Shown: one piece after another, positions 585 to 14,720 of the stretch
Numbering within the stretch: the first letter of the stretch is position 1
Layout: each line of letters starts with the position of its first letter
Translations under genes and position numbers: made by a program
NCBI GenBank assembly: GCA_020054095.1
Contig: JAGVMA010000076.1
Location: 1 to 51,347, forward strand
From: Bacteroidia bacterium
GTDB taxonomy: Bacteria > Bacteroidota > Bacteroidia > JADZBD01
Reading direction: 5' to 3'
Length of the DNA stretch: 51,347 nucleotides
Notes under the pieces: generated by a model
Told to the model about the DNA's origin: nothing
Database searches by the model: none
Seen by the model: only the letters and a program-made list of their open reading frames with translations

Positions 585-1907
585 TTGGATCCCGACCCTT
601 TAAGTTACACTTTACTCCAATTAATTTTTACCGTAAAACCTTTTACCATGGGCAGCGGCATTGCACTCGCCATAATGCTCATTTTGCTTATTCTATCGGC
701 ATTGGTTGCCGCATCCGAAGTTGCTTTTTTTTCGCTCAAGCCTGCCGATATTGAATACCTGCAAGAAAACGAATCGCGCACTAATCGTGTTATTTTACAA
801 TTGCTCGAAAAACCAAAACGCCTGCTCGCTACACAACTTATTGCCATTAATTTTTTAAACATAGGTGTAGTAGTCATTTCTGAAATGGTGATGCACGAGC
901 AGTTCGATTTCTCTGACCGACCACTGCTTGGCTTTATGATACAAGTAGTAGTAGTTACGTTTTTAATATTGCTGGTGGCCGAAGTGGTGCCCAAAGTGTA
1001 TGCAAATAATCACGCTATTTCCACTGCATCGCTCATGGCATATCCCACTGTATTAATAGATAAACTATTGTGGCCTGTAAGTTCGTTGCTTATGGTTAGC
1101 ACTAATTTTATTGATAAGCGAATTAAAAAACGTGGCGTTAGTATTTCGGTTGAAGAATTATCGCACGCACTTGAGATTACCGATGACCCCGACACTACCG
1201 AAACCGAAAAAAAATTGCTCAAAGGCATTGTGCAGTTCGGCAACATGGATGTGAAACAGATAATGAAACAGCGGCTCGATGTAATTGCATTTGAGTACAA
1301 CACTAACTTCACCACACTTATTGAAAAAATTGTGAACTCCGGTTTTTCGCGCGTGCCTGTTTACAACCAATCGTTAGATAAAATTGCAGGCATACTTTAC
1401 ATCAAAGATTTATTACCACACCTTGATAAAAGCTCTGATTTTAAGTGGCAAGAACTTTTGCGCGAACCATTTTTTGTCCCCGAAAATAAAATGATTGATG
1501 ATTTGCTCCGCGAATTTCAAAGCAAAAAAATTCACCTTGCCGTGGTGGTTGATGAGTACGGAGGCACATCAGGCATAGTAACATTAGAAGATATTATTGA
1601 AGAAATTGTGGGCGAAATTAACGATGAGTTTGATGACGATGATTTGGTTTATTCTAAACTTGATGAGTACAACTATGTATTTGAAGGCAAAATATCGCTA
1701 AACGATTTAAGCCGAATTGTTGAAGTGGAAAGCGATGAATTTGAAAGCACCGGAGATGCCGATACCCTTGCCGGATTTATTTTAGAACAAACCGGAAAAA
1801 TTCCCGTAAAAGGCGAAAAAATAAAATTTCACGATTATGTGTTCACCATCGAATCGTCTGACAACAGAAAAATAAAACGCGTAAAAATTACATTGCCCAA
1901 TGATTAA
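585..1907 (+). CDS. gldE: Gliding motility-associated protein GldE (CNNM/CorC family)
   Basis: This is an inner-membrane protein of the hemolysin-C/CorC family, linked genetically in Flavobacterium to the gliding/T9SS lipoprotein GldD. About residues 20-190 form the DUF21 (CNNM) region with several membrane segments, for example around 22-45, 95-120 and 150-170. Two CBS repeats span about 205-330 (SGFSRVPVYN, VVVDEYGGTSGIVTLEDIIEEIVGEI). A CorC/HlyC transporter-associated domain covers about 345-435. The frame opens at a TTG codon (585) encoding MDPDP, a beginning I associate with GldE proteins. An ATG at 648 would remove 21 residues. The stop overlaps the gldD start by 8 bp, so the two are translationally coupled. 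Confidence 0.92.
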   Translation: MDPDPLSYTLLQLIFTVKPFTMGSGIALAIMLILLILSALVAASEVAFFSLKPADIEYLQENESRTNRVILQLLEKPKRLLATQLIAINFLNIGVVVISEMVMHEQFDFSDRPLLGFMIQVVVVTFLILLVAEVVPKVYANNHAISTASLMAYPTVLIDKLLWPVSSLLMVSTNFIDKRIKKRGVSISVEELSHALEITDDPDTTETEKKLLKGIVQFGNMDVKQIMKQRLDVIAFEYNTNFTTLIEKIVNSGFSRVPVYNQSLDKIAGILYIKDLLPHLDKSSDFKWQELLREPFFVPENKMIDDLLREFQSKKIHLAVVVDEYGGTSGIVTLEDIIEEIVGEINDEFDDDDLVYSKLDEYNYVFEGKISLNDLSRIVEVESDEFESTGDADTLAGFILEQTGKIPVKGEKIKFHDYVFTIESSDNRKIKRVKITLPND

Positions 1908-2481
1908 CAACCGAACAGTATTTTTTTTCCTTCTTCTTTCCTTCTTCGCATCATGCTCCGGTGACGAAACTGTAACACACAATCCGCGCGGCTATTTTCG
2001 TATCGATTTGCCCGAAAAAAAATATGTTCAATACCAAAACGATAGCTTCCCTTACTCGTTCCAATACCCTTCTTATGCCACCATTGAACCCTACAAAGGC
2101 AAGATAAACGAAAAATATTTTTTAAACATTAATTTTAATAAACTAAAAGCCAAGCTGCACCTTAGCTATAAAACGGTGAACAATAATTTACCCCAATTTT
2201 TAGAAGAAAGCCGTGGCATGGCAATGCAGCACCAGGTAAAAGCAAGCGCCTTAAAAGAAAACTTAGTTATAAACCTTAACTCAAAAGTATATGGCCTCAT
2301 TTACGAATTAGGCGGCAACACCGCATCATCACTCCAGTTTTATATCACCGATAGCACCAAAAATTTTATGCGCGGAGCACTCTATTTTTTCGCCCACCCT
2401 AATGCCGATTCCGTTGCACCCGTTTACGATTTCATCCGTACCGATATTTACCATATCATCGAAACTTTTAAGTGGGAGTAA
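1900..2481 (+). CDS. gldD: Gliding motility lipoprotein GldD
   Basis: This 193-residue lipoprotein is required for gliding and type IX secretion in Flavobacterium. The signal peptide (residues 1-18) ends in a lipobox with Cys19 (FFASCSG). The mature part begins with the family-typical NPRGYFRIDLPEKKYVQY and later has FPYSFQYPSYA, both characteristic of GldD. The length matches the family (about 185-195 residues). It overlaps the end of gldE by 8 bp, and the pair gldE-gldD after ssb is a conserved order. A 7-bp inverted repeat (2489-2495 with 2509-2515) lies just after the stop but lacks a T run, so it is only a weak terminator candidate. Confidence 0.95.
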   Translation: MINNRTVFFFLLLSFFASCSGDETVTHNPRGYFRIDLPEKKYVQYQNDSFPYSFQYPSYATIEPYKGKINEKYFLNINFNKLKAKLHLSYKTVNNNLPQFLEESRGMAMQHQVKASALKENLVINLNSKVYGLIYELGGNTASSLQFYITDSTKNFMRGALYFFAHPNADSVAPVYDFIRTDIYHIIETFKWE

Positions 2482-2582
2482 AGGAGTGTAGCTGTGTGAA
2501 ATATCATAACAGCTAAGCTAAAACAAAGATGGTAAAAAGCAAAAAATATATACCTAAAGATTTGGTGGAAAAATTGATCTTT

Positions 2583-2777
2583 TTAAGCCCTTGTAATGGC
2601 GTTAAAAGCATCTGTAATTTCTTTGCTATACATATTTCCGAAAGTGGAGAGGCACCATGCATAAAGCAACAGGCGCTCATCGGGTTTTATCCATTTCATG
2701 GCTTTGCTCAGCTCTTTTTTAAAAAGAAATTTATCAAAACTTACTTTTTGTAATATTTGCTTACTTAGTTCAAACAT
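2583..2777 (-). CDS. Conserved small Bacteroidota protein, function unknown
   Basis: A 64-residue protein begins MFELSKQILQKVSFDKFLFKK and continues with a WIKPDERLLLYAWCL segment. I recognise this as a small family seen in other Bacteroidota, without a known role. No signal peptide or membrane segment is visible, so it is probably cytoplasmic and helical. The ATG at 2777 was chosen over one 20 codons earlier because AGGAGG lies 5 nt before it, an unusually strong Shine-Dalgarno site for this phylum. The longer frame would add an unrelated leader. It stands alone between convergent or divergent neighbours. Confidence 0.75.
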   Translation of the reverse strand: MFELSKQILQKVSFDKFLFKKELSKAMKWIKPDERLLLYAWCLSTFGNMYSKEITDAFNAITRA

Positions 2778-2806
2778 TTTTACCTCCTGTTTTTTTAATA
2801 GCATAA

Positions 2807-2837
2807 CGAATGTAGTAAAATGAGCGTGCAAGCACAA
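2807..2837 (-). promoter_or_regulatory. Candidate promoter of the small conserved protein
   Basis: On the minus strand a -7-like TACATTCG (2807-2814) is preceded, after 20 nt, by a -33 TTG (2835-2837). TACATTCG differs from TAnnTTTG at one position. It lies 29 nt before the ATG at 2777, and the intervening leader carries the AGGAGG site. Confidence 0.4.
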
Positions 2838-2908
2838 TAAATATTCTCTAAAAAAATGTTAAATGTTAATAACTAAAATGTAAAATCTTAGTAATCGGGT
2901 ATTTAAAA

Positions 2909-3478
2909 TTATTCTTGCCAGCGGAATGTTTCTTGCTCAAGTCCGCATAAATCAACGATGCGGCTAACCACGGTGGTGGCAAATTGCTCAATGGTTGTTG
3001 GTTTGCTGTAAAATGATGGACTAGCCGGGCAAATTATCCCTCCGGCTTCGGTTACGGTTTTCATGTTATTAATATGAATGAGCGAAAGTGGAGTATCGCG
3101 TGTAACTAAAATTAATTTTCTGCGCTCTTTTAATATTACATCGGCAGTGCGTGTAGTTAAATCATTTGATACGCCCGATGCGATACGCGCCAATGTGCCC
3201 ATGCTGCATGGGCAAATTATCATTGTATTATATTTTGCCGAGCCGCTTGCAAATGGCGCATTAAAATCGTTTTTGTGATATAGTTGAAAGGGTATTTTCT
3301 CAAAATCGCGGTTGCCTAATTCTACTTGCCACACTTCTTTAGCATTATCGCTCATTACTAATGCCACTTGCTCAATTTGTGGTGAGAGCGATTGTAATTT
3401 TTCGAGCAACAGCTTTGCATAAATAGCACCGCTTGCACCGGTAATCGCCACTACTATTTTATGTTTATTCTGTTTCAT
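2909..3478 (-). CDS. ubiX: UbiX family flavin prenyltransferase
   Basis: The enzyme joins dimethylallyl phosphate to reduced FMN to make prenyl-FMN, the cofactor of UbiD-type decarboxylases. Seen: the N-terminal VVAITGASGAIYA flavin-binding loop (GASG at residues 14-17), CPCSMGTLARIASGVSNDL, the ADVILKERRKLILVTRDTPLS stretch and GGIICPASPSFYS, all hallmarks of UbiX. The length of 189 residues is normal. An ATG at 3490 would add four residues. Both starts overlap the end of the outer-membrane protein gene (stop at 3465), which indicates translational coupling. No ubiD is in the window, so the partner decarboxylase must lie elsewhere. Confidence 0.93.
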   Translation of the reverse strand: MKQNKHKIVVAITGASGAIYAKLLLEKLQSLSPQIEQVALVMSDNAKEVWQVELGNRDFEKIPFQLYHKNDFNAPFASGSAKYNTMIICPCSMGTLARIASGVSNDLTTRTADVILKERRKLILVTRDTPLSLIHINNMKTVTEAGGIICPASPSFYSKPTTIEQFATTVVSRIVDLCGLEQETFRWQE

Positions 3479-4091
3479 CGGTTTTGCCAAAAGTATAACG
3501 TATCATAAAAGTAAGCACATTGTTAGATGCGCCAAAGTTTAAGCGGTTAATGTTTATGGTTCCGCTGGCGTGTGGTCGCACAGGTATTGCCGAATAAGAA
3601 AAGCGCCAAATAATTTGTAGCTTTTCAGATGCGTTGTAACCAATGCCGGCATGAAAAGGTACTTCGTATTTTTTAAAAGGCTTTATTCCGGTTATGGGTA
3701 AATTGTTTGCTTCTTCATATACTTTAAACAAAACACCAAAGCCGGTGCCGGTTTCAAACGATAATCCTTTTTTGTATTTGTAACGGATAATGAGCGGGAC
3801 TTCTACATATTGTAGTCGCAAAAAATATTGATTAGGAAAATTAGTTTGCGGATTTTTGCGCGCCCCTTTTTCAGAATATAAAATACCAAACTCCCATTGC
3901 CACTTGGTGCTAATATCGTTATTGAGGTAAATACCGCCATATATGCCCGCTTTGTTGTAGCCGGCATAACTATCGCCATCAAATTGTGTTGCATTAATGC
4001 CCACGCACAAGCCGGCTTTAAATTTTTTTTGAGCAATTGCTGCATCGGTTAATGCAACTAAAACAAGCAGAAGAAAAATATTATTTTTCAC
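3465..4091 (-). CDS. PorT-like outer membrane beta-barrel protein
   Basis: This 208-residue protein has a signal peptide (about residues 1-20, ending AIAQ) followed by short amphipathic strands with alternating aromatic residues, as in the outer-membrane beta-barrel (PorT-like) family of Bacteroidota. Examples are WQWEFGILYSEKG, FLRLQYVEVPLIIRYKY and the closing strand FMIRYTFGK. A GTG at 4091 is preferred because it begins directly with a normal signal peptide and lies 7 bp after the dxs stop. Earlier ATGs would put 38 or fewer non-signal residues inside dxs. Substrate or partner is unknown. It sits between dxs and ubiX in one transcription unit. Confidence 0.72.
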   Translation of the reverse strand: MKNNIFLLLVLVALTDAAIAQKKFKAGLCVGINATQFDGDSYAGYNKAGIYGGIYLNNDISTKWQWEFGILYSEKGARKNPQTNFPNQYFLRLQYVEVPLIIRYKYKKGLSFETGTGFGVLFKVYEEANNLPITGIKPFKKYEVPFHAGIGYNASEKLQIIWRFSYSAIPVRPHASGTININRLNFGASNNVLTFMIRYTFGKTDETE

Positions 4092-4098
4092 AGTAAAA

Positions 4099-6030
4099 CT
4101 AAGCTGATAGTACTTTCTTCTTAAAGCGGAGCAACTTGCGTACTTCTTCGGCAATTGCTTTTTCATCGTAACCACATTCGGCATACAGTTCGGGTTGTTC
4201 GCCATGTTCTATTACACTATCGGGCATACCGAGGCGTTTTACTTGTGCACTATAATTATTATCGGCCATAAATTCTAATACAGCACTGCCCATGCCGCCA
4301 ATAATGCAGCCATCTTCAACGGTAATAATTTTTGTATGCGTTTTAAAAACTTCGTGTAATAAAACTTCGTCAATCGGTTTTGCAAAACGCATATCGTAAT
4401 GAGCTGCGCTTATGCCTTCTTTCTCTAATTCCTTTATTGCTTTAGTTACTATATTACCTATGTGTCCGATAGATAGTATCGCCAAATCATCGCCTGTTTT
4501 TATTTTTCGTCCCTTTCCAATTTCAATTTTCTGAAACGGGGTTTTCCATTCTGTCATTACCCCATTGCCGCGCGGGTAACGAATAGAGAAAGGCGATTTT
4601 ACTTCATCTAATTGAGCGGTGTACATGAGATTTCGGAGTTCTTCCTCGTTCATAGGAGCGCTTACAATCATATTTGGTATGCACCTGAAATAAGCTAAAT
4701 CGTAAGCGCCATGATGTGTAGGTCCATCAGCACCTGCAAGGCCGCCTCTGTCTAAACAAAAAACAACTTTTAGGTTTTGTATTGCAACATCGTGCACCAC
4801 CTGATCGTAAGCACGTTGCATAAACGATGAGTAAATATTGCAAAACGGAACAATCCCTTGCGTGGCAAGTCCGGCCGAAAAAGTAACAGCATGTTGCTCG
4901 GCAATGCCCACATCAAACGCACGTTGCGGCATTTTTTCCATCATAAATGTGAGTGAACAGCCGGTGGGCATAGCAGGAGTTACGCCCATTATTTTTTCGT
5001 TCATTTCGGCAAGTTCCACAATGGTGTGGCCAAAAACATCTTGGTATTTTGGTGGTTGTGGTTCTTTCGGAACTATTTTAATTATCTCGCCCGTATCTTT
5101 ATTAAATAAGCCAGGGGCGTGCCACACGGTTTGGTTTCCTTCTTCCGAAAATTTAAAACCTTTTCCTTTTTGGGTGAGTACGTGTAAAATTTTTGGTCCG
5201 GGAATATCTTTTAAATCGGCTAATATTTTTGTTACTCTGTCCACATCGTGCCCATCTACAGGGCCAAAATAGCGGAACTTTAGCGATTCAAACAAATTAC
5301 TTTGTTTCAGCAACGATGTTTTTACAGCGTTTTCAATCTTTGAAGCAATCTCTTGTGCATTGGGTCCAAATTTTGAAATTTTTCCGAGCAAGCGCCACAC
5401 TTCATCTTTTACTTTATTATACGTGTGCGATGTGGTAATATCGGTTAAGTATTCTTTTAAAGCGCCCACATTGGGGTCAATGCTCATGCAATTATCATTA
5501 AGCACTACCAGCAAATTAGCATTGGCAATGCCGGCATGGTTAAGTGCCTCGAATGCCATACCGGCTGTCATCGCACCATCGCCTATAACGGCTATTACAT
5601 TTCTGTTTTTTTCTTTTTTGTATTTGCTGGCTACTGCCATGCCCAGCGCTGTGGAGATGGATGTGGACGAGTGTCCCACACCCATTGTGTCATATTCACT
5701 TTCGCTCCTTTTCGGGAAACCGCTTATGCCTTTGTATTTACGATTGGTATGGAAATTTTTTCTGCGACCGGTTAATATCTTATGCCCATAAGCTTGGTGC
5801 CCCACATCCCACACTAATTGGTCGTGCGGAGTGTTAAACACATAATGTAATGCAACTGTGAGTTCTACCACGCCAAGTGATGCGCCAAAGTGTCCGCCTT
5901 TTTGTGATACCACATCAATAATATATTGCCTTAATTCTTTGCAAACTTGCGGCAGTTGTTCTGCCTGTAGTTTCCGCAAATCATCCGGATACTCAATTTT
6001 ACTTAATAGGTCGCCTGCGTTAAATTGCAT
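4099..6030 (-). CDS. dxs: 1-deoxy-D-xylulose-5-phosphate synthase
   Basis: This enzyme catalyses the first step of the MEP isoprenoid pathway, condensing pyruvate with glyceraldehyde 3-phosphate using thiamine diphosphate. The 643 residues match the family length. Seen: the N-terminal GGHFGASLGVVELTVALH block, the thiamine-binding motif GDGAMTAG (150-157), VDGHD, the IAEQHAVTFSAGLA segment around residue 380 carrying the catalytic Glu, and GGLAGADGPTHHG. The C-terminal transketolase domain ends with the usual GYDEKAIAEEV stretch. It is the first gene of a run that continues with the barrel protein and ubiX. Isoprenoid supply for quinones and for polyprenyl-phosphate sugar carriers would depend on it. 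Confidence 0.97.
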   Translation of the reverse strand: MQFNAGDLLSKIEYPDDLRKLQAEQLPQVCKELRQYIIDVVSQKGGHFGASLGVVELTVALHYVFNTPHDQLVWDVGHQAYGHKILTGRRKNFHTNRKYKGISGFPKRSESEYDTMGVGHSSTSISTALGMAVASKYKKEKNRNVIAVIGDGAMTAGMAFEALNHAGIANANLLVVLNDNCMSIDPNVGALKEYLTDITTSHTYNKVKDEVWRLLGKISKFGPNAQEIASKIENAVKTSLLKQSNLFESLKFRYFGPVDGHDVDRVTKILADLKDIPGPKILHVLTQKGKGFKFSEEGNQTVWHAPGLFNKDTGEIIKIVPKEPQPPKYQDVFGHTIVELAEMNEKIMGVTPAMPTGCSLTFMMEKMPQRAFDVGIAEQHAVTFSAGLATQGIVPFCNIYSSFMQRAYDQVVHDVAIQNLKVVFCLDRGGLAGADGPTHHGAYDLAYFRCIPNMIVSAPMNEEELRNLMYTAQLDEVKSPFSIRYPRGNGVMTEWKTPFQKIEIGKGRKIKTGDDLAILSIGHIGNIVTKAIKELEKEGISAAHYDMRFAKPIDEVLLHEVFKTHTKIITVEDGCIIGGMGSAVLEFMADNNYSAQVKRLGMPDSVIEHGEQPELYAECGYDEKAIAEEVRKLLRFKKKVLSA

Positions 6031-6125
6031 GTAAAAAATCTTATGCGAAGTTAATTAAATTACGCTAATGAAGGATGAACGGATTGGCGGGCAATAAATT
6101 GAGCGTTTAACAGAAATTAACAAAA

Positions 6126-6989
6126 CTATTTCTTTACAAATCGTTGCGAATTGTAAAAACCGCTGCCCGTTATTTCAATTAAATAAATACCCGCGTGTAA
6201 TGCTGATACATCAAAAGCGGTAGCATTGCCATAAGCTATTGAATTGGTTTTGCTGATTAATTCGCCTACGGAATTATAAATGCTCACAACAATTTTTTCG
6301 TTCAAGAAATCGCGAAAGCTGATGTTTATTTTTTCATTTACCGGATTGGGAAATACAATAAAATTATTTTCATAATTGTTTTCGGCTACACCCGTGCAGC
6401 TATTCCACAATGTATCGTAAGCGGTGCTCACGCAAGTTAAAATATCGGTAGTGGTAACACTATAAATGCCGGGCTGTGTTACTTGTATGGTTGCAGTGGT
6501 ATCGCCAGTGGACCACGAGTAAGAAACAGCAGGGTTAACGGCAAAAAGCGTAACGGTATCGCCAGGGCATATATAATTGCTTGGTGGCACTTGTGTAATT
6601 TGGTTTAGCAGTGGCGATTGGGTAATTATTACAGTATTTGGGCTTGCGCTTCCGGTATCCACAGGGTTACTTGCAATTACGCGTATGCGATATAAAAAAC
6701 TAAAATTGGTGTTTTGCGGAATGGTAGCGAAAATTACACCACTTGTAAACCAAGTAATATTCCCAATGTTAACGGGATTAGAAAATTGCCCAAACATATC
6801 TGATAACTGCGCTGTAAACACATTTCCGAAATTATAATTACCACCCGTTACCGTGAATGGAACCACCACCGTGCCACCGGCACATGTAGATAGTTGCAAA
6901 ACACTATCAGTAGTTAAAGTGGGCTGAGCAAATGTGTAAGTCGTTAACGTAATTAATAGTACAGTAAATATTTTTTTAAGCATTAACAT
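6126..6989 (-). CDS. Secreted protein with Ig-like region and T9SS type A sorting domain
   Basis: This 287-residue cargo protein of the type IX secretion system has a signal peptide (about 1-21, TYTFAQ). The middle resembles the PKD/Ig-like repeats of Bacteroidota surface proteins (ICPGDTVTLFA, VSYSWSTGDTTATIQVTQPG, around 130-190). The C-terminal sorting domain covers about 207-287, with FPNPVNEKINISF, VSIYNSVGELI and AGIYLIEITG, and it ends in a basic strand RFVKK. An alternative ATG lies two codons inside. No enzymatic domain is recognised, so a structural or adhesive role at the cell surface is likely but unproven. Confidence 0.85.
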   Translation of the reverse strand: MLMLKKIFTVLLITLTTYTFAQPTLTTDSVLQLSTCAGGTVVVPFTVTGGNYNFGNVFTAQLSDMFGQFSNPVNIGNITWFTSGVIFATIPQNTNFSFLYRIRVIASNPVDTGSASPNTVIITQSPLLNQITQVPPSNYICPGDTVTLFAVNPAVSYSWSTGDTTATIQVTQPGIYSVTTTDILTCVSTAYDTLWNSCTGVAENNYENNFIVFPNPVNEKINISFRDFLNEKIVVSIYNSVGELISKTNSIAYGNATAFDVSALHAGIYLIEITGSGFYNSQRFVKK

Positions 6990-7082
6990 GGGGTAATTAT
7001 TTTGTGTGGCTAAAATATGCTAATTAAGTTGATACACAATATCTTGAATAAAAAATCGTTAGTCATTGTTCGGTAAAAAAAC

Positions 7083-7090
7083 TATTTTTG
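7083..7090 (+). promoter_or_regulatory. Candidate -7 element for the GT2 gene
   Basis: TATTTTTG matches TAnnTTTG and lies 8 nt before the preferred ATG at 7099, implying a very short leader. No convincing -33 TTG is seen at 19-21 nt spacing. Confidence 0.35.
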
Positions 7091-7098
7091 ATGCCCTT

Positions 7099-7833
7099 AT
7101 GGAGATTAAAAAATTATCAATTGTAATACCGGCTTATAACGAAGCCAAAACCATACACCTTATTTTAAATAAAGTGTTGGCGGTTAAATTACATAACGAT
7201 ATTGAGAAGGAAATTATCATTGTAAACGATTGCTCAAAAGACAATACAAAAGAAGTAGTTGAAAAATACATTGCCGAACATCAGGGTAGCAATATTCGTT
7301 TATTTAATCAGGAATACAACCAAGGCAAAGGTGCTGCGCTGCACAAAGGCATTTCATTAGCAACAGGCGAATACTTGGTAATACAAGATGCCGATTTAGA
7401 ATACGACCCTGCCGAATACAATATTTTATTAAAACCCGTAATTGATGGATTTGCCGATGTGGTTTACGGTTCCAGGTTTATGGGAGGCAAGCCACACCGC
7501 ATTTTATTTTTCTGGCACACTATAGGCAATAAATTTTTAACTCGCTTATCTAACATGTTTACCAATTTGAATTTAACCGACATGGAAACGTGCTACAAAT
7601 TATTTAAAACCGAAATAGTACAAAAGTTAAAACTGAAAGAAAAGCGTTTTGGTTTTGAGCCCGAAGTTACCTCGCGAATTTCGCGCGTACCCAATATTCG
7701 TATTTATGAAGTAGGCATATCTTATTACGGCCGCACTTACGAAGAAGGAAAAAAAATTGGCTGGAAAGATGGCTTCAGAGCTATTTATTGCATTACCAAG
7801 TTTGGTATATTTGATCGTAAACCGTTTAAATAA
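7099..7833 (+). CDS. Family 2 glycosyltransferase, polyprenyl-phosphate sugar synthase type
   Basis: This 244-residue GT-A enzyme resembles dolichyl-phosphate mannose/glucose synthases. It probably loads a sugar from a nucleotide donor onto undecaprenyl phosphate at the inner face of the cytoplasmic membrane. Seen: the start [35 protein letters not shown], a DxD motif ([11 protein letters not shown], Asp97 and Asp99) and the acceptor-loop text YGSRFMGG. No C-terminal membrane pair is present, unlike GtrB-type relatives. The ATG at 7099 is preferred over a TTG at 7066. It heads a row of GT-C-like membrane proteins that could use its lipid-linked sugar as donor. The exact sugar is unknown. Confidence 0.88.
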
Positions 7834-7842
7834 TATTTCATA

Positions 7843-9477
7843 ATGGCCATATTTCCGAAATTGGAGAGTAGCGTACTTAAACTAATAAGGTACGAAAAAT
7901 GGCTTTTTGTCTCACTTATTGCGGTTCACCTTATACCACTATTTGCTCTTCCTTTCTTCCCCACTTTAGATGGTCCGGCTCACTTATATAATGCGAACCT
8001 GATTAATCACTTTTTATTTGGCGACCACAGTTTTCTTGAGCAGTATTTTTATTTAAATACTGAACCCGAACCTAATTGGATAGGGCATGCTATACTGTGT
8101 TGGATGAACGGAATGTTCCCTGTAAATGTGGCCGAGAAAGTAATACAAGCATTTTATATCATAATGCTTCCTATATCGTTTCGTTATGTCGTAAAATCGG
8201 TAAATCCCCATGCTGTTTTTGTTGAATATATTATTTTCCCATTTATCTATTCGTTTACATTTTATTTAGGTTTTTATAACTTCTCGATTGGTATTCCGGC
8301 TGTGTTTTTCACATTAGGATACTTTGTTAGACACCAAAATAATTTTAACGCAGTAAAATTTTTGTTTTTGTTTTTGCTGTTGCTTGCTGTTTATTTCAGC
8401 CATTTGTTTTTGTTCATCCTTATTGGCTTGTTAATTGCATTATTCATAATGTGGAATTTTATTTATGACAGTGTGCGCGAAAAAAAGATTTTTTGGTTTT
8501 CGTTTTTAAAAAAATCTGGTTTAGTTTTATTGGCAGCATTGCCCGGTATTTTACTTACGTTAAATTTCATTTCCAAGAAAGCTACATCAGCCCCGGGCGA
8601 TTATTTAGCCGCTGATGAATTAGTGAAATGGATAAAGCAGGTGAGGCCTGTTGTGGCATTGAGTTTTGAAGAAGAGGAACGATATACAGCAAAATTATTT
8701 TATCTGTTATTTTTTCTAACCATTGGCACATTGGCGGTTAAGTTTCTTCGCCTCAGGTTTTCGAGCGAAGAAAAGCATGTGGAAATTACGCATGACAAAA
8801 CCAGGTTAATGATTAATAGAAATGATGTGTGGGCATTGTCGTCAATTATTTTGCTTTTCTTGCTTTTTTATTTACCCGATACTTTTGCTAATGCAGGGTA
8901 TATATCCGTAAGGTGTTGCTTGTTTTTTTTCTTTGTGTGGATATTATGGCTGGCATCACAAAAAATTAACCGTTACGCTGGCATCTTTGTACTTGTTGTA
9001 TCATGTTGGGTAAGTTACAACTTGATGAAATATCACTTAAAAGTTTCAAAAAACCTCAGCAATGATGCAGTGGAAATTACAAGTGTTACACCGCACATTC
9101 AGCCAAACAACACATTACTACCTTTAAACTTTTCTGATAATTGGCTTCAAAGCCATCTTTCTAATTATTTAGGAGCCGAAAAAAAAATAGTAATTTTTGA
9201 AAATTATGAGGCGGCAAATAAATATTTTCCTGTGAGGTGGCAAGATAAAACTGAACCATATACAAGTATTGGAGGTTTTAGAAATAGGCTACCGTGTTTT
9301 CAATTATTAAAATATGAGCAAGATACTCCGGGAAAAATAAATTACATACTTACATGGAAAATGCCTGAAAACATAACAGATAGTTGTGCAATAAAAACTG
9401 TTAGAACCATAGATTCACTTTATACTAAAGTCTTTTCATCGCCTAATGGCGATGCGGTGCTGTATCAACGCAAATAA
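7843..9477 (+). CDS. Multi-pass membrane protein, GT-C-like glycosyltransferase candidate
   Basis: A 544-residue protein with roughly ten hydrophobic segments, the first at about 20-40. Directly after it comes FPTLDGPAHLYNA with Asp43 in the first periplasmic loop, the place where GT-C glycosyltransferases carry their catalytic acid. The middle is a run of long hydrophobic helices (FYLGFYNFSIGIPAVFF and others). The last 150 residues or so form a soluble domain. It starts 9 bp after the GT2 gene and ends 9 bp before the next GT-C-like gene, so the three form an operon. I recognise no named family. The glycosyltransferase call rests on topology, the loop aspartate and neighbours. Confidence 0.6.
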   Translation: MAIFPKLESSVLKLIRYEKWLFVSLIAVHLIPLFALPFFPTLDGPAHLYNANLINHFLFGDHSFLEQYFYLNTEPEPNWIGHAILCWMNGMFPVNVAEKVIQAFYIIMLPISFRYVVKSVNPHAVFVEYIIFPFIYSFTFYLGFYNFSIGIPAVFFTLGYFVRHQNNFNAVKFLFLFLLLLAVYFSHLFLFILIGLLIALFIMWNFIYDSVREKKIFWFSFLKKSGLVLLAALPGILLTLNFISKKATSAPGDYLAADELVKWIKQVRPVVALSFEEEERYTAKLFYLLFFLTIGTLAVKFLRLRFSSEEKHVEITHDKTRLMINRNDVWALSSIILLFLLFYLPDTFANAGYISVRCCLFFFFVWILWLASQKINRYAGIFVLVVSCWVSYNLMKYHLKVSKNLSNDAVEITSVTPHIQPNNTLLPLNFSDNWLQSHLSNYLGAEKKIVIFENYEAANKYFPVRWQDKTEPYTSIGGFRNRLPCFQLLKYEQDTPGKINYILTWKMPENITDSCAIKTVRTIDSLYTKVFSSPNGDAVLYQRK

Positions 9478-9486
9478 AAATCGCAA

Positions 9487-11307
9487 ATGCTTATTCGCAA
9501 TTATTTTAACAGCCGCTATTTTTTTATTACGGCAGTTATATTAATTATTGGCGTATCGGGCTGGGTTATTGTAACTGATAAGTGGGAAGGCGAGCGCTGG
9601 CGCGATAGCATTCAGCACGATGGAAAAGGATACTATGCATACTTGCCTGCTATTTTTATTTATGGCGATTTGCAATACGGTTTCGAAAAAGAAATTGCTG
9701 CAAAGTATAACCAAACCTATTACGAAAACGCTTACTGCAATATTATTGACAGTAAAAAATTAAACAAATATTATGGCGGCACAGCATTGCTGCTATTACC
9801 ATTTTTTCTGCTTGCTTGCTTGCTTAGTTATTTTTTGGGTTATGATGTAGATGGTTATTCCTATATCTTCCAATGCTCGGTGAGTGTGGCTGCTGTTTTC
9901 TATTTAGTGTTGGCAGTAATACTGTTACGCAAATTTTTGCGCCATTATTTTTCGGAGCAAACCACCGTGTTTACAATATTGTTTATTTATTTCGGTACTA
10001 ATTTGTTTTATTACACATTGTATGAATCCTACATGTCGCATGTATATAGTTTTTTTGCAGTAAGCGGTTTTTTGCTTTTTGCACACAAGGCAATACATCA
10101 GCCGGCAAAAAAATATTATTTATTGGCAGCTTTATTTTTTGGCATCATCGTTTTCATTCGTCCCATTAATGGATTAGTAGTATTGCTCTTGCCATTTTTG
10201 GCAGGCAATAAACTAGTGTTTAAAAACTTTTTTCAATCATTTATAAAAAATAAATCTGTTTTTTTGCTGAGCAACACTGTTGTATTTGCTTTTGTTTTTT
10301 TGCAATTGCTGCTTTACAAATTACAAGCGGGCAGTTTTATTGTTTACTCATATAGCAACGAGGGATTTAATTTTTTAGCTCCCGAAATAATGAATGTTTT
10401 GTTCAGTTACCGAAAAGGTTTTTTTGTTTACACACCATTAGCTTTTATTGCTTTGTTTGGTTTTTATAAATTGTTTTATAAAAATAAATTTCAGTTTTAT
10501 TGGCTATTGTTTTTTATGCTTTTGACTACCTATATTATTTCATCGTGGTGGATGTGGTTTTATGGCGGCACATTTGGTATGCGCCCGTTTATTGATTTTT
10601 ATCCGCTTTTTGCTTTTTTGTTGGCTGCGCTTATTTGCAATATTGCATCGGGCGCTACACGCGCGGTGGTTTTTGTGGCTATATGTTTCACGGTGTTATT
10701 AAACTTGGTGCAAACACACCAAAAAGACGAATCAATATTGCCTTACGATAGAATGACAAAACAAAAATTCTGGACCATTTTTATGGAAACAGATATTAAA
10801 TGGGCAGGTGCATTTGATAATTATAATTGGCACGAAGGCAAGCCACGCAAACAGATTTACGAAATGCACGATTTAGAAAATCCGTTAGATTCTTTCATCA
10901 TTTCTGAAAATACGATAGGTGGCGGTGCTGTTTTTTCAGGAAAAAAATCGAGTAAGATTGGCGATGGCGTACACAAAAGTTTTACTTATAGTCGTGTGCT
11001 AAATTTTTTACCCGATTCGGGTAACTGGTGCATACGCATTAATGCGCGCGTGTGGATGAATTCGTTAGAATCGGGTGCGGCAATGTGTATAGGAGTGGGC
11101 GATACAAACGGGGTGGTTTATCGCTGGTATAGTATGCCACTTGTGCGGCAAATACGTAACGAGCAAGTGTGGAGCAGTATTACCAATATTATGAGCATAT
11201 CGCGCGAATGGCGCAGTACCAAAGATGTACTTTTTATTTTCACCACTACCGATGATGATGTGCCGGTGTATATTGATGACTTGGAAGTGAAGTATCAATT
11301 GTATTGA
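9487..11307 (+). CDS. Multi-pass membrane protein with C-terminal sandwich domain, GT-C-like
   Basis: This 606-residue protein has an N-terminal membrane segment (about 10-30) followed by a loop with QHDGKGYYAYLPA (Asp45), a GT-C-like catalytic-loop layout. About ten membrane helices reach to about residue 415. The last 170 residues are soluble and end with a strand carrying YIDDLEV, like a small beta-sandwich or carbohydrate-binding module. It is paralogous to the broken gene at 12884-14720: both share the D...GYYLYLPA loop, YRKG.F(V/L)YTPL and SSW.WWY blocks, and the IDD ending. Its last 168 bp are duplicated at 12591-12758, on the far side of the fic gene. It probably transfers sugars on the outer face of the cytoplasmic membrane; this is inference. 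Confidence 0.65.
   Translation: MLIRNYFNSRYFFITAVILIIGVSGWVIVTDKWEGERWRDSIQHDGKGYYAYLPAIFIYGDLQYGFEKEIAAKYNQTYYENAYCNIIDSKKLNKYYGGTALLLLPFFLLACLLSYFLGYDVDGYSYIFQCSVSVAAVFYLVLAVILLRKFLRHYFSEQTTVFTILFIYFGTNLFYYTLYESYMSHVYSFFAVSGFLLFAHKAIHQPAKKYYLLAALFFGIIVFIRPINGLVVLLLPFLAGNKLVFKNFFQSFIKNKSVFLLSNTVVFAFVFLQLLLYKLQAGSFIVYSYSNEGFNFLAPEIMNVLFSYRKGFFVYTPLAFIALFGFYKLFYKNKFQFYWLLFFMLLTTYIISSWWMWFYGGTFGMRPFIDFYPLFAFLLAALICNIASGATRAVVFVAICFTVLLNLVQTHQKDESILPYDRMTKQKFWTIFMETDIKWAGAFDNYNWHEGKPRKQIYEMHDLENPLDSFIISENTIGGGAVFSGKKSSKIGDGVHKSFTYSRVLNFLPDSGNWCIRINARVWMNSLESGAAMCIGVGDTNGVVYRWYSMPLVRQIRNEQVWSSITNIMSISREWRSTKDVLFIFTTTDDDVPVYIDDLEVKYQLY
11140..11307 (+). repeat. 168-bp direct repeat, copy 1 (3' end of GT-C-like gene)
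   Basis: This stretch is the final 55 codons plus stop of the upstream membrane-protein gene. It recurs without gaps at 12591-12758, offset 1451 bp. By eye three substitutions separate the copies (165 of 168 identical), each A here and G in copy 2 or the reverse. Similarity stops sharply at the stop codon and just before CTTGTGCGGC. Confidence 0.92.
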
Positions 11308-11331
11308 CCCCCCAAAAAGCGTAGTTTAGCC

Positions 11332-11407
11332 CTAAAAGTAAAATAAGAATACCCTTATGTTACTTTCGTGGCTAAAAGTAAAATAAGCCGTTTTTTATTT
11401 TACTTTT
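11332..11407 (+). promoter_or_regulatory. Repeated AT-rich boxes upstream of fic, candidate operator
   Basis: CTAAAAGTAAAATAAG occurs at 11332-11347 and again at 11372-11387, exactly 40 bp apart. A 13-bp inverted copy of its core (TTATTTTACTTTT) is at 11395-11407. A -7-like TACTTTCG (11361-11368) lies between the two direct boxes and a perfect TACTTTTG (11401-11408) overlaps the inverted one. Boxes embedding promoter elements suggest binding by a repressor, possibly the winged-helix part of the Fic protein itself. Confidence 0.5.
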
Positions 11408-11412
11408 GTAAA

Positions 11413-12570
11413 ATGGATATAAAGGATTATAAATCAGGAGTTCATCTCACATCGCCAGAGGGGTATAAGTACTTTATGCCTGAAAAAGTAAATCATTCAT
11501 TTACATGGAATGATTCTAAATTAAATGAGCTATTAGAACAAGCATCATTAAAATTAGGAGAGTTAAATACTATTGCTCGTTTTGTTCCGGATGTGGATAT
11601 GTATATTAAGATGCACGTATACAAAGAGGCAGTGGTATCCAGTAGAATAGAGGGAACACAAACTCATATTGGTGAGGCACTGTTGAATATTAAAGACATA
11701 AATCCCGAGAACAGGAACGATTGGCAAGAGGTGAACAACTATGTGAATGCAATGAATCATTCATTAGATAGACTAAGCGCAATTCCGTTATCAAGTAAAT
11801 TATTGAAGGAAGCACACAAGCGTTTGATGCAAAGTGTTAGAGGCCAAAATAAAACACCGGGACATTTTAGAACCAGCCAAAACTGGATAGGCGGAGCAAG
11901 TATAACGGACGCGGTATTTATACCTCCTGTTCATTTTGAAGTAAATAGTTTAATGGGTGATTTAGAGCAGTTTCTTCATAATCAATATGCGGGAGTTCCA
12001 CATATAATAAAAGCAGCAATTACCCATTATCAATTTGAAACAATTCACCCCTTTTTGGATGGAAACGGACGCTTGGGCAGATTAATGGTAACAATTTATT
12101 TAGTAGAGAATAAAGTGTTAGATAAACCATTGCTTTATTTGTCTGATTTTTTTGAAAGAAACAAAGGATTGTATTATGACAACCTAACACTGGTCAGACA
12201 AAAAAATGATATGCGCCAGTGGTTGTTATTTTTTTTAGTTGCAATAAAAGAGACAGCAACTAAAGCGGTGGATACGTTGCAAAAAATAATTAAACTAAAA
12301 AATAGCACTGAAAAAAACGTAATATTTAACATGGGGCGAAAAATCAAAAGTGCGCAGTTGCTTTACGATTATTTGTTTTCCAACCCTATTGTAAGTTTAG
12401 CCGAAGCTTCACAAGCTTGCAGTTTATCTTCAAAGGCAACCGGTGATTTGATAAACGATTTTGTTAAGACAGGAATTTTGAAAGAAATTACAGGTTTTCA
12501 GCGCAATAGGTTATTTGCATACGATGTGTATTTGAATTTATTTGAGCCTGAAACAAGCCCCCGCCCCTAA
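11413..12570 (+). CDS. Fic family protein with C-terminal helix-turn-helix
   Basis: A 385-residue Fic enzyme, which usually transfers AMP from ATP to hydroxyl side chains of target proteins. The N-terminal Fic/DOC_N region contains the inhibitory helix motif SSRIEGT (Ser76, Glu80-Gly81), placing the regulator before the catalytic core as in class II Fic proteins. The core has HPFLDGNGRLGR beginning at His212, a complete active site. The C-terminal 60 residues resemble a winged helix (VSLAEASQACSLSSKATGDLINDFVKTGILKEI). The ATG at 11413 is preferred over a GTG at 11368, since the region before it holds repeated boxes and promoter-like elements. No antitoxin or partner gene is adjacent. The gene lies between two copies of the 3' end of the preceding gene, indicating a later insertion. 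Confidence 0.92.
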   Translation: MDIKDYKSGVHLTSPEGYKYFMPEKVNHSFTWNDSKLNELLEQASLKLGELNTIARFVPDVDMYIKMHVYKEAVVSSRIEGTQTHIGEALLNIKDINPENRNDWQEVNNYVNAMNHSLDRLSAIPLSSKLLKEAHKRLMQSVRGQNKTPGHFRTSQNWIGGASITDAVFIPPVHFEVNSLMGDLEQFLHNQYAGVPHIIKAAITHYQFETIHPFLDGNGRLGRLMVTIYLVENKVLDKPLLYLSDFFERNKGLYYDNLTLVRQKNDMRQWLLFFLVAIKETATKAVDTLQKIIKLKNSTEKNVIFNMGRKIKSAQLLYDYLFSNPIVSLAEASQACSLSSKATGDLINDFVKTGILKEITGFQRNRLFAYDVYLNLFEPETSPRP

Positions 12571-12590
12571 CCTCAATTCACCTAACGCCC

Positions 12591-12758
12591 CTTGTGCGGC
12601 AAATACGTAACGAGCAAGTGTGGAGCAGTGTTACCAATATTATGAGCATATCGCGCGAATGGCGCGGTACCAAAGATGTACTTTTTATTTTCACCACTAC
12701 CGATGATGATGTGCCGGTGTATATTGATGACTTGGAAGTGAAATATCAATTGTATTGA
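12591..12758 (+). repeat. 168-bp direct repeat, copy 2 (displaced gene end)
   Basis: This is a gap-free second copy of the last 168 bp of the GT-C-like gene at 9487-11307, here without the rest of the gene. It still encodes the 55-residue C-terminal segment and TGA stop in frame, but no start codon or upstream coding sequence is present, so it is a gene fragment. The 1451-bp period between copies contains only the fic gene and its control region. The rest of the gap between the fic stop and 12884 holds only this copy, a short AT-rich spacer and a promoter element. Confidence 0.92.
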
Positions 12759-12883: not shown

Positions 12884-14720
12884 ATGAAAAATAAATTATC
12901 GGCACTTGCATTACTAATAGTATTAGTCGCCATGTTCACCTGGAAAGGTGGCCGACTACACGATGATAAAGGCAAACTATATAACCCCATTGCCTGGGAT
13001 GTATTTGGTTATTATCTGTATTTGCCTGCTACTTTTATTTATGATGATGTGGCATTAGAAAATCGCGCTTGGCTCGATTCCGTTTATGCTAAATATAAAC
13101 CATCGCCATATCCTTATCAGCACACGGGCACCGAAACTAATAAGCGCGTTATAGTTTATCCAATGGGTTTATCGCGTGTTATGCGCCCGGATTTTTTTGG
13201 CGCACAGTTATAGTAAGCTCACAGGTGGCATTGCCGATGGCTATTCCACGCCTTATCAAATTGCATTATTTCTTTCCGCATTTATATTTACCATCATTGG
13301 CATTTTTCTTTTCCGAAAAATTTTACTTCATTTTTTTGATGATAAAATTACAGCCATCACCATTTTGCTGATTGGCTTAGGCACTAATTATTTTTTCCAA
13401 ACCGGGCTTGATGGCACCATGCCTCATAATTTTTTATTCACACTTAATTGCATCATTGTGCTGCTTACTATTAAATGGCATCAGTCGCAAAAAATAAAAT
13501 ATGCTTTTATGCTGGGGCTAATGCTGGCTGGGTAACAATATGTCGCCCCACCGAAATTTTGTGGATACTCGTTCCGCTGCTTTGGAATGTATATGATAAA
13601 CAATCGCTACTTGCAAAATTCCAATTACTAAAAAGTAAAATATCACACCTTGTCCTTTTAATTTTTGCAATGGTGGCCATTGGTAGTTTGCAAATGATTT
13701 ATTGGAAATATTGCACAGGCCATTGGTTTGCCTATAATCATTACGAAAAACCTACCTTCCTCGACCCTTATACTTTATTGTTTTTATTCAGCTATAAAAA
13801 AGGTTGGTTGCTTTACACACCATTAATGATAGTTGCCATTCTTGGTTTTTACTTTTTATACAAACAAAACAAAAAAATATTTTTTGCAGCATTTTTTTTT
13901 CGTGCTTAATATTTACACACTTTCGAGTTGGGAATGTTGGTGGTATTCGGTTACTTACAGCCAGCGCCCGCTAGTAGAAATGTATCAGCTATTGGCACTG
14001 CCCTTAGCTTGCACAGTGGCATGGGCATTAACAAGTAGATTAAAATCGGTGATTGTTTTTTCGGCACTCACACTGTTATGCACATTAAATATTTTTCAGA
14101 TATGGCAATTTATGCAAGGCATAATTGATGGCGAACGCATGACCAAAACGTATTACTGGCGTGTGTTTTTAAAAACCACCGCCACCGATGAAGACCGACA
14201 ATATTTAGAAGTATCCTATACCAATGATTGGCCCGAATATTTTAATGACAAAAAAAATAATTACACCCGAAAAGAAGTACTCAACTTAAACTTTGAAAAA
14301 GCAACTGATAAAAACATAACTGACACTATAGGTTACGAAAGCAATAAATGCTTGATGCTTAATAGCGAATTTGCTTTTTCGCCATCGTATAGTCAGGAAT
14401 ATAAAAATATATCAGAAAAAAAACACATCTGGGTGCGTGCCACTGCTAAAGTTTTCCCGATTACCGACCCTAAAGAAAGCAACGCATCATTAGTATTATC
14501 GTTTAACAGCAAAGGCCGAATGTATAAATATAAAGCTACAGACATTTACGAATCGGGCTTTAAACCCGGCCAATGGAATACAATTACGGTTGATTACATG
14601 TCGCCTTACGTGCGCCATGGCTACGATAAATTGGACATTTATTTTTGGAACATGGGCAGCGGCATCATTTTGATAGACGATTTTAAAGCCGAAATTTTTG
14701 AACCTATTGTGGAATATTAA
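12884..14720 (+). pseudogene. Broken GT-C-like membrane protein gene (three homopolymer frameshifts)
   Basis: Four overlapping frames (12884-13213, 13176-13535, 13475-13909, 13833-14720) read end to end as one protein of about 611 residues, paralogous to 9487-11307. The shifts fall at T7 (13192-13198, needs T8), GGG (13530-13532, needs GGGG) and T9 (13892-13900, needs T8). Repairing each restores smooth text: FFLAHSYSKLTGG, LAGVTICRPTE and FFFVLNIYTLSSW. The repaired protein has the AWDVFGYYLYLPA loop, many membrane helices and a soluble C-terminal domain ending IDDFKAE. Real decay is favoured by the cluster of three lesions in one gene. Homopolymer sequencing error is the main alternative, since the coding text between the shifts is well preserved. 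Confidence 0.8.

Follow-up and report, generated by a model that had tools for sequence, protein, structure and literature searches.

The fic locus

The window (by which we mean the whole 51-kb stretch of DNA that was analyzed) encodes on its forward strand an intact GT-C-like membrane protein of 606 amino acids, at 9487–11307 in the list of open reading frames (ORFs). This protein has no match in Pfam, and its homologs in G001, G010, and other genomes are 34–40% identical to it. The last 172 bp of this host gene (copy A, 11136–11307), which end exactly at its TGA stop codon, recur on the same strand as a remnant of the gene end (copy B, 12587–12758). The repeat is direct and ungapped, with 97.7% identity over its 172 nt (E = 1e-79). 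It is the sole repeat within the window at E ≤ 1e-6, and there is no third occurrence elsewhere in the 3.17-Mb, 87-contig genome. The first-pass annotation of this DNA had put the duplicated 3' end at 168 bp; the duplication is real and slightly longer. The two copies differ at four sites, of which three fall inside those 168 bp: in copy B, two are nonsynonymous (I to V and S to G) and one is synonymous.

The copies are separated by a unit of 1279 bp (11308–12586, forward strand), which contains one operator-like inverted repeat and one fic ORF. The ORF list has no transposase or integrase in this interval. The annotation had described the unit in just these terms, as a Fic gene with its control region and without a transposase or integrase, and we agree.

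We predict that fic encodes a SoFic-type protein adenylyltransferase (AMPylase) for anti-phage defense. The ORF list begins the gene at 11368, which is probably too early: because homologs begin at the equivalent of MDIKDYKSG, we place the start at the ATG at 11413, so that fic would extend from 11413 to 12570 on the forward strand. The protein has the Pfam domains Fic_N and Fic with HPFx[D/E]GNGRxxR, and it contains the motif HPFLDGNGRLGR. It matches the SoFic profile from PADLOC at 374 bits (E = 2e-112), and the solved structures in the PDB that are related to it are SoFic adenylyltransferases. Its score against the SoFic equivalog from NCBIfam is 166 bits, which is under the cut-off of 550 bits. 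Among 110 homologs, the catalytic motif is retained in 105 and an N-terminal motif of the inhibitory type is found in 108. No other Fic-domain gene was detected in this genome.

SoFic is reported to be a toxic AMPylase that acts by abortive infection (PMC12249575). The window's protein resembles the known SoFic defense proteins in its combination of Fic_N and Fic, its length (about 385 amino acids), and its catalytic and inhibitory motifs. One difference is that the SoFic-type gene of E. coli has an antitoxin gene, AS1, downstream; in the window, just 16 bp separate the stop codon of fic from copy B, so there is no room for AS1. The operator-like inverted repeat (11334–11407, no strand assigned), which was identified as a self-match, has TAAAAGTAAAATAAG arms that are 82% complementary. 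Palindromic regions like this one also precede fic in homologous loci. We infer that fic is autoregulated, and the inverted repeat is probably the site.

Beyond copy B is a second GT-C-like gene (12884–14720, forward strand), recognized from the ORF list and by homology, that is split into several frames. Across the homologous stretch there are two TGA, one TAG, and four TAA codons, so this gene is either decaying or carrying sequencing errors. In relatives that lack fic at this place, the second GT-C-like gene adjoins the host gene. We sought the window's own empty site in relatives from the same family and class. In G001 and G010, the two GT-C-like genes are adjacent without fic, yet they are just 28–40% identical to those in the window, which makes for a weak empty site.

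Horizontal movement of the fic unit

The closest homolog of the window's Fic protein (71% amino acid identity) is from G342, which belongs to another family, and it lies in an unrelated context. In G001, which is from the same family as the window, the Fic protein is just 45% identical and branches far away in the tree. These relationships support the suggestion in the first-pass annotation that this is a mobile cassette. More broadly, phyla are intermingled in a tree built from 106 proteins, where the label Bacteroidota has to change 9 times or more on branches with good support. This mixing of phyla is not by itself proof of transfer, because bins can hold foreign contigs.

The extent of the moving unit is indicated by L144 and L145, which are from two species of one genus. 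Their DNA is 90% identical, and this similarity is limited to the fic match plus 98 bp on its upstream side and 31 bp on its downstream side; outside this segment, the surroundings differ. Since the identity is confined to fic and its operator, it is these two together that move as a unit. For a strain-level comparison within E. coli, we searched DNA with a gammaproteobacterial homolog and with a homolog from a Citrobacter plasmid, and there was no match. A search of phages for the Fic protein gave distant matches only.

In some loci, part of another gene follows fic. The first 130 bp or so after fic in L069, L083, and L103 include a remnant of the start of hsdM, and the corresponding part of L141 includes a remnant of the start of a serine recombinase gene. 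The rest of each gene is missing, as if the remnant had been brought along from a donor site.

Duplicated sequences at other fic loci

We screened 115 fic loci from many phyla for direct repeats between the two flanks. They were picked as nearest relatives rather than as a random sample, and most of them are from metagenome-assembled genomes (MAGs). We applied a fixed rule (600 bp per side, blastn E ≤ 1e-5), under which 93 loci could be counted, and fic was flanked by a direct repeat in 22 of them, as compared to 4 of 108 other ORFs in the same loci (Fisher p = 3e-5). Under the same rule, pairs of flanks taken from different loci gave a repeat in 1 of 300 cases. In the large loci, 1 of 428 shifted windows of gene size was flanked, versus 7 of 43 for fic.

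We then considered by eye which of these repeats are duplications of host sequence. This was so for 14 of the 22 flanked loci, which represent 13 independent sites, including the window (L147 and L148 share one site, which was counted once). Another duplication is at L146, whose flanks are too short for the fixed rule, for a total of about 14 sites. Not included are multi-copy or intergenic repeats (L068, L080, L131, and L153), repeats of the operator (L058, L120, and L152), and a weak repeat of 36 bp (L121). The curated count remains higher for fic than for the other ORFs (p = 0.006); without the window, it is 13 of 92.

The duplicated sequence is different at each site. For example, it is the end of lepA, pyrC, mutS, or Type I hsdM; at other sites it is the end of a gene for a Type ISP restriction enzyme, the end of a convergent YCII gene, or the start of a gene for UDP-ManNAc dehydrogenase. 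So fic is indeed found beside other duplicated gene ends, as the first-pass annotation had proposed to check, and these genes are unrelated to each other. The length of the duplication varies as well. It is 43–158 bp at the other fic sites, or 43–172 bp across the curated sites when the window is included, and the curated units are 1245–1587 bp long. In L142, the inserted unit supplies the stop codon of the host ORF; the gene in question is present in 39 congeners, which have no synteny downstream of it and so provide no proof of an empty site.

At 71 of the 93 fic loci, we detected no duplication. The repeats at old insertions may have decayed since. Also, no flanking repeat was found in 11 plasmid copies from a more distant subfamily (35–41% identity).

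For two of these sites, relatives show what the locus looks like with a single gene end and no fic. First, two members of genus g5, G119 and G180, have fic behind lepA, with 43–45 bp repeated. In G050, which is from the same genus, the stop codon of lepA is followed directly by TTTTTTTCACCACTAAGGGCAC, which is what is found after copy B in G119 and G180. Second, in genus g114, L163 repeats 84 bp of pyrC around fic, while G425 has one pyrC end that is collinear with copy B of L163 and with the sequence beyond. Empty sites of this kind are what the annotation had proposed to look for at the window, and the ones at lepA and pyrC support its view that the host gene end was duplicated upon insertion. 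It had also suggested a relative as the source of the second copy, and this is not supported at the one site where the single copy of a relative allowed a comparison: copies A and B of L163 differ from each other at 3 of 84 sites, but copy A differs from G425 at 10 sites and copy B at 9. The two copies are closest to each other, which is what local duplication of the target would give.

How fic may insert

We think it likely that a unit of about 1.28 kb with fic was acquired horizontally and was inserted just past the stop codon of the GT-C-like gene, and that 172 bp of the target were duplicated in the process. It appears that fic moves although its unit encodes no known enzyme for mobility. 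A dedicated transposase seems unlikely, given that the repeats vary in length and the units share no end sequences. The two strands of the target would probably be broken some 40–170 bp apart, the fic unit would be joined into the opened gap, and repair synthesis would fill in, and so duplicate, the interval between the breaks. A duplication that spans a gene end would leave one copy that keeps the host gene functional, and such insertions would survive for this reason. This could also explain why gene ends predominate among the targets, as a gene would tolerate a duplication across its own end.

The first-pass annotation had raised the possibility that the cassette spreads by homologous recombination. 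Because the targets are unrelated genes, homology cannot choose the new sites, and we do not find support for this route to new sites. On the other hand, once the unit lies between direct repeats, homologous recombination could lead to its loss, its amplification, or its exchange among close relatives.

The chief rival to local duplication of the target is a Campbell-type integration, in which circular or one-ended DNA that carries fic along with a homologous gene end from a relative recombines with the end of the host gene, so that one of the copies is foreign. This is the form that the annotation's idea takes if homologous recombination is the route. We consider this rather unlikely, even though there is some evidence for it. 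The copies in the window differ at four sites; the remnants of hsdM and of the recombinase gene imply that parts of flanking genes can travel with fic; and in six loci there is a copy of the operator on both sides of fic. But two of the three differences within the 168 bp are nonsynonymous changes in the remnant copy, which fits relaxed constraint. Furthermore, the similarity of the L163 copies to each other rather than to their congener is not what a foreign copy would give, and with targets that have no relation to each other, homology cannot account for the first entry at any of them.

The loci with operator-like regions both before and after fic (E < 1e-10) are L058, L114, L118, L120, L146, and L152. 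We considered whether operator copies are general terminal repeats that act as the ends for mobility, and we rejected this idea, as they are clear in these six loci only. Recombination between two copies of the operator could remove fic, with a single operator remaining as the scar.

It is less probable still that the gene end was duplicated in tandem first, with fic arriving later between the copies, or that a tandem duplication of greater length was cut down to this form. Such duplications are frequent in bacteria, and they would produce the same arrangement of copy A, fic, and copy B. However, this would take two events at every one of the roughly 14 independent sites, with fic always exactly between the copies, and the empty relatives at the lepA and pyrC sites have a single gene end instead of a tandem one.

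It seems very improbable to us that the unit is integrated site-specifically by a tyrosine or serine integrase supplied in trans, for which the gene end would be the attachment site. Integrative elements often rebuild the gene end that they enter and leave direct repeats. When they rebuild the 3' end of a tRNA or another gene, the repeat of the gene end keeps the host gene whole, as it does here, and in L139 there are serine recombinase genes that adjoin fic. Unlike these elements, however, the fic unit has no integrase between the copies, no fixed site, and repeats of variable length, and the duplicated sequences differ from site to site without a common core that we could see by eye. Finally, although the genome is in 87 contigs and the comparison loci are mostly MAGs, a chimeric contig or other assembly artifact is hardly credible, as the copies in the window are not identical and the same lepA site has both copies in two species (G119 and G180) that were assembled separately.

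Relationship to known insertions

Insertion with long target duplication is known from work of the Kobayashi laboratory (Nobusato 2000; Furuta 2010; as cited in PMC1643837, PMC3031569, and PMC3874152) on restriction-modification genes of Helicobacter pylori, in which the target repeats are variable and on the order of 100 bp. These insertions resemble those of fic in having no mobility enzyme, long and variable target repeats, and empty sites in related genomes. The difference is that they involve restriction-modification genes in two strains of H. pylori, whereas we have a solitary Fic AMPylase in many phyla. As first described, what is inserted is a restriction-modification system, and here it is fic; we treat gene content as outside the definition of the insertion event. 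We file the insertion signature as one that is already known from restriction-modification genes, and its gene content (a SoFic-type fic) as new. Among the papers that were searched, none links insertion with long target duplication to Fic or SoFic, which is weak evidence of absence.

A recurring scar, in the form of 40–170 bp of duplicated target along with empty sites in relatives, turns the movement of solitary defense genes that have no mobility enzyme into a trait that can be counted. The scar also puts insertions in order of time, flags single genes of unknown function that are mobile, and defines what is required of any enzyme that might be proposed. And it extends the pattern of restriction-modification genes to a predicted anti-phage gene that AMPylates, across many phyla.

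Other single genes with similar scars

The four control ORFs that were flanked by repeats encode a RhuM protein, two large AlbA_2 proteins, and one AAA/DUF4143 protein. Similar scars at these genes imply that the process is not specific to Fic. Like fic, the RhuM, large AlbA_2, and AAA/DUF4143 genes are inserted in restriction loci as single genes, several with duplicated flanks. In contrast to fic, their proteins are unrelated to Fic and the duplications were rarer in the samples that we tested: in a separate sample that was curated less closely than the fic loci, there were flanking repeats at 5 of 27 RhuM genes and at 1 of 29 AlbA_2 genes, the one being of the large type. We tentatively suggest, as a possibility that we would not yet bet on, that bacteria have an unrecognized route without a transposase by which single defense genes (SoFic, RhuM, large AlbA_2, AAA/DUF4143, and restriction genes) are spliced in where functional genes end, the target being left intact by a long staggered duplication, and that this is a main way that solitary defense genes disperse between phyla.

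In L121 and L122, a sequence that reads like the beginning of a nifJ-type gene (MAKEKKFMTCDG) recurs before and after fic. L122 (around 4700–6200 and 8411) has this sequence once more, 2.3 kb downstream, and in these loci other single genes (ORF6N-like) lie between the MAKEKKFMTCDG copies. Insertions may have stacked up here at a single hot spot. L236 and L262 show this type of scar at other gene families, with a large AlbA_2 gene between 121-bp copies of what we read as the 3' end of an ABC transporter gene, and a RhuM gene between 75-bp copies of what we read as the start of hsdR. Also, L061 has a restriction locus (1751–8565) with AlbA_2, hsdM, fic, hsdS, and RhuM genes, in which three of the genes of the inserted type each have direct repeats around them.
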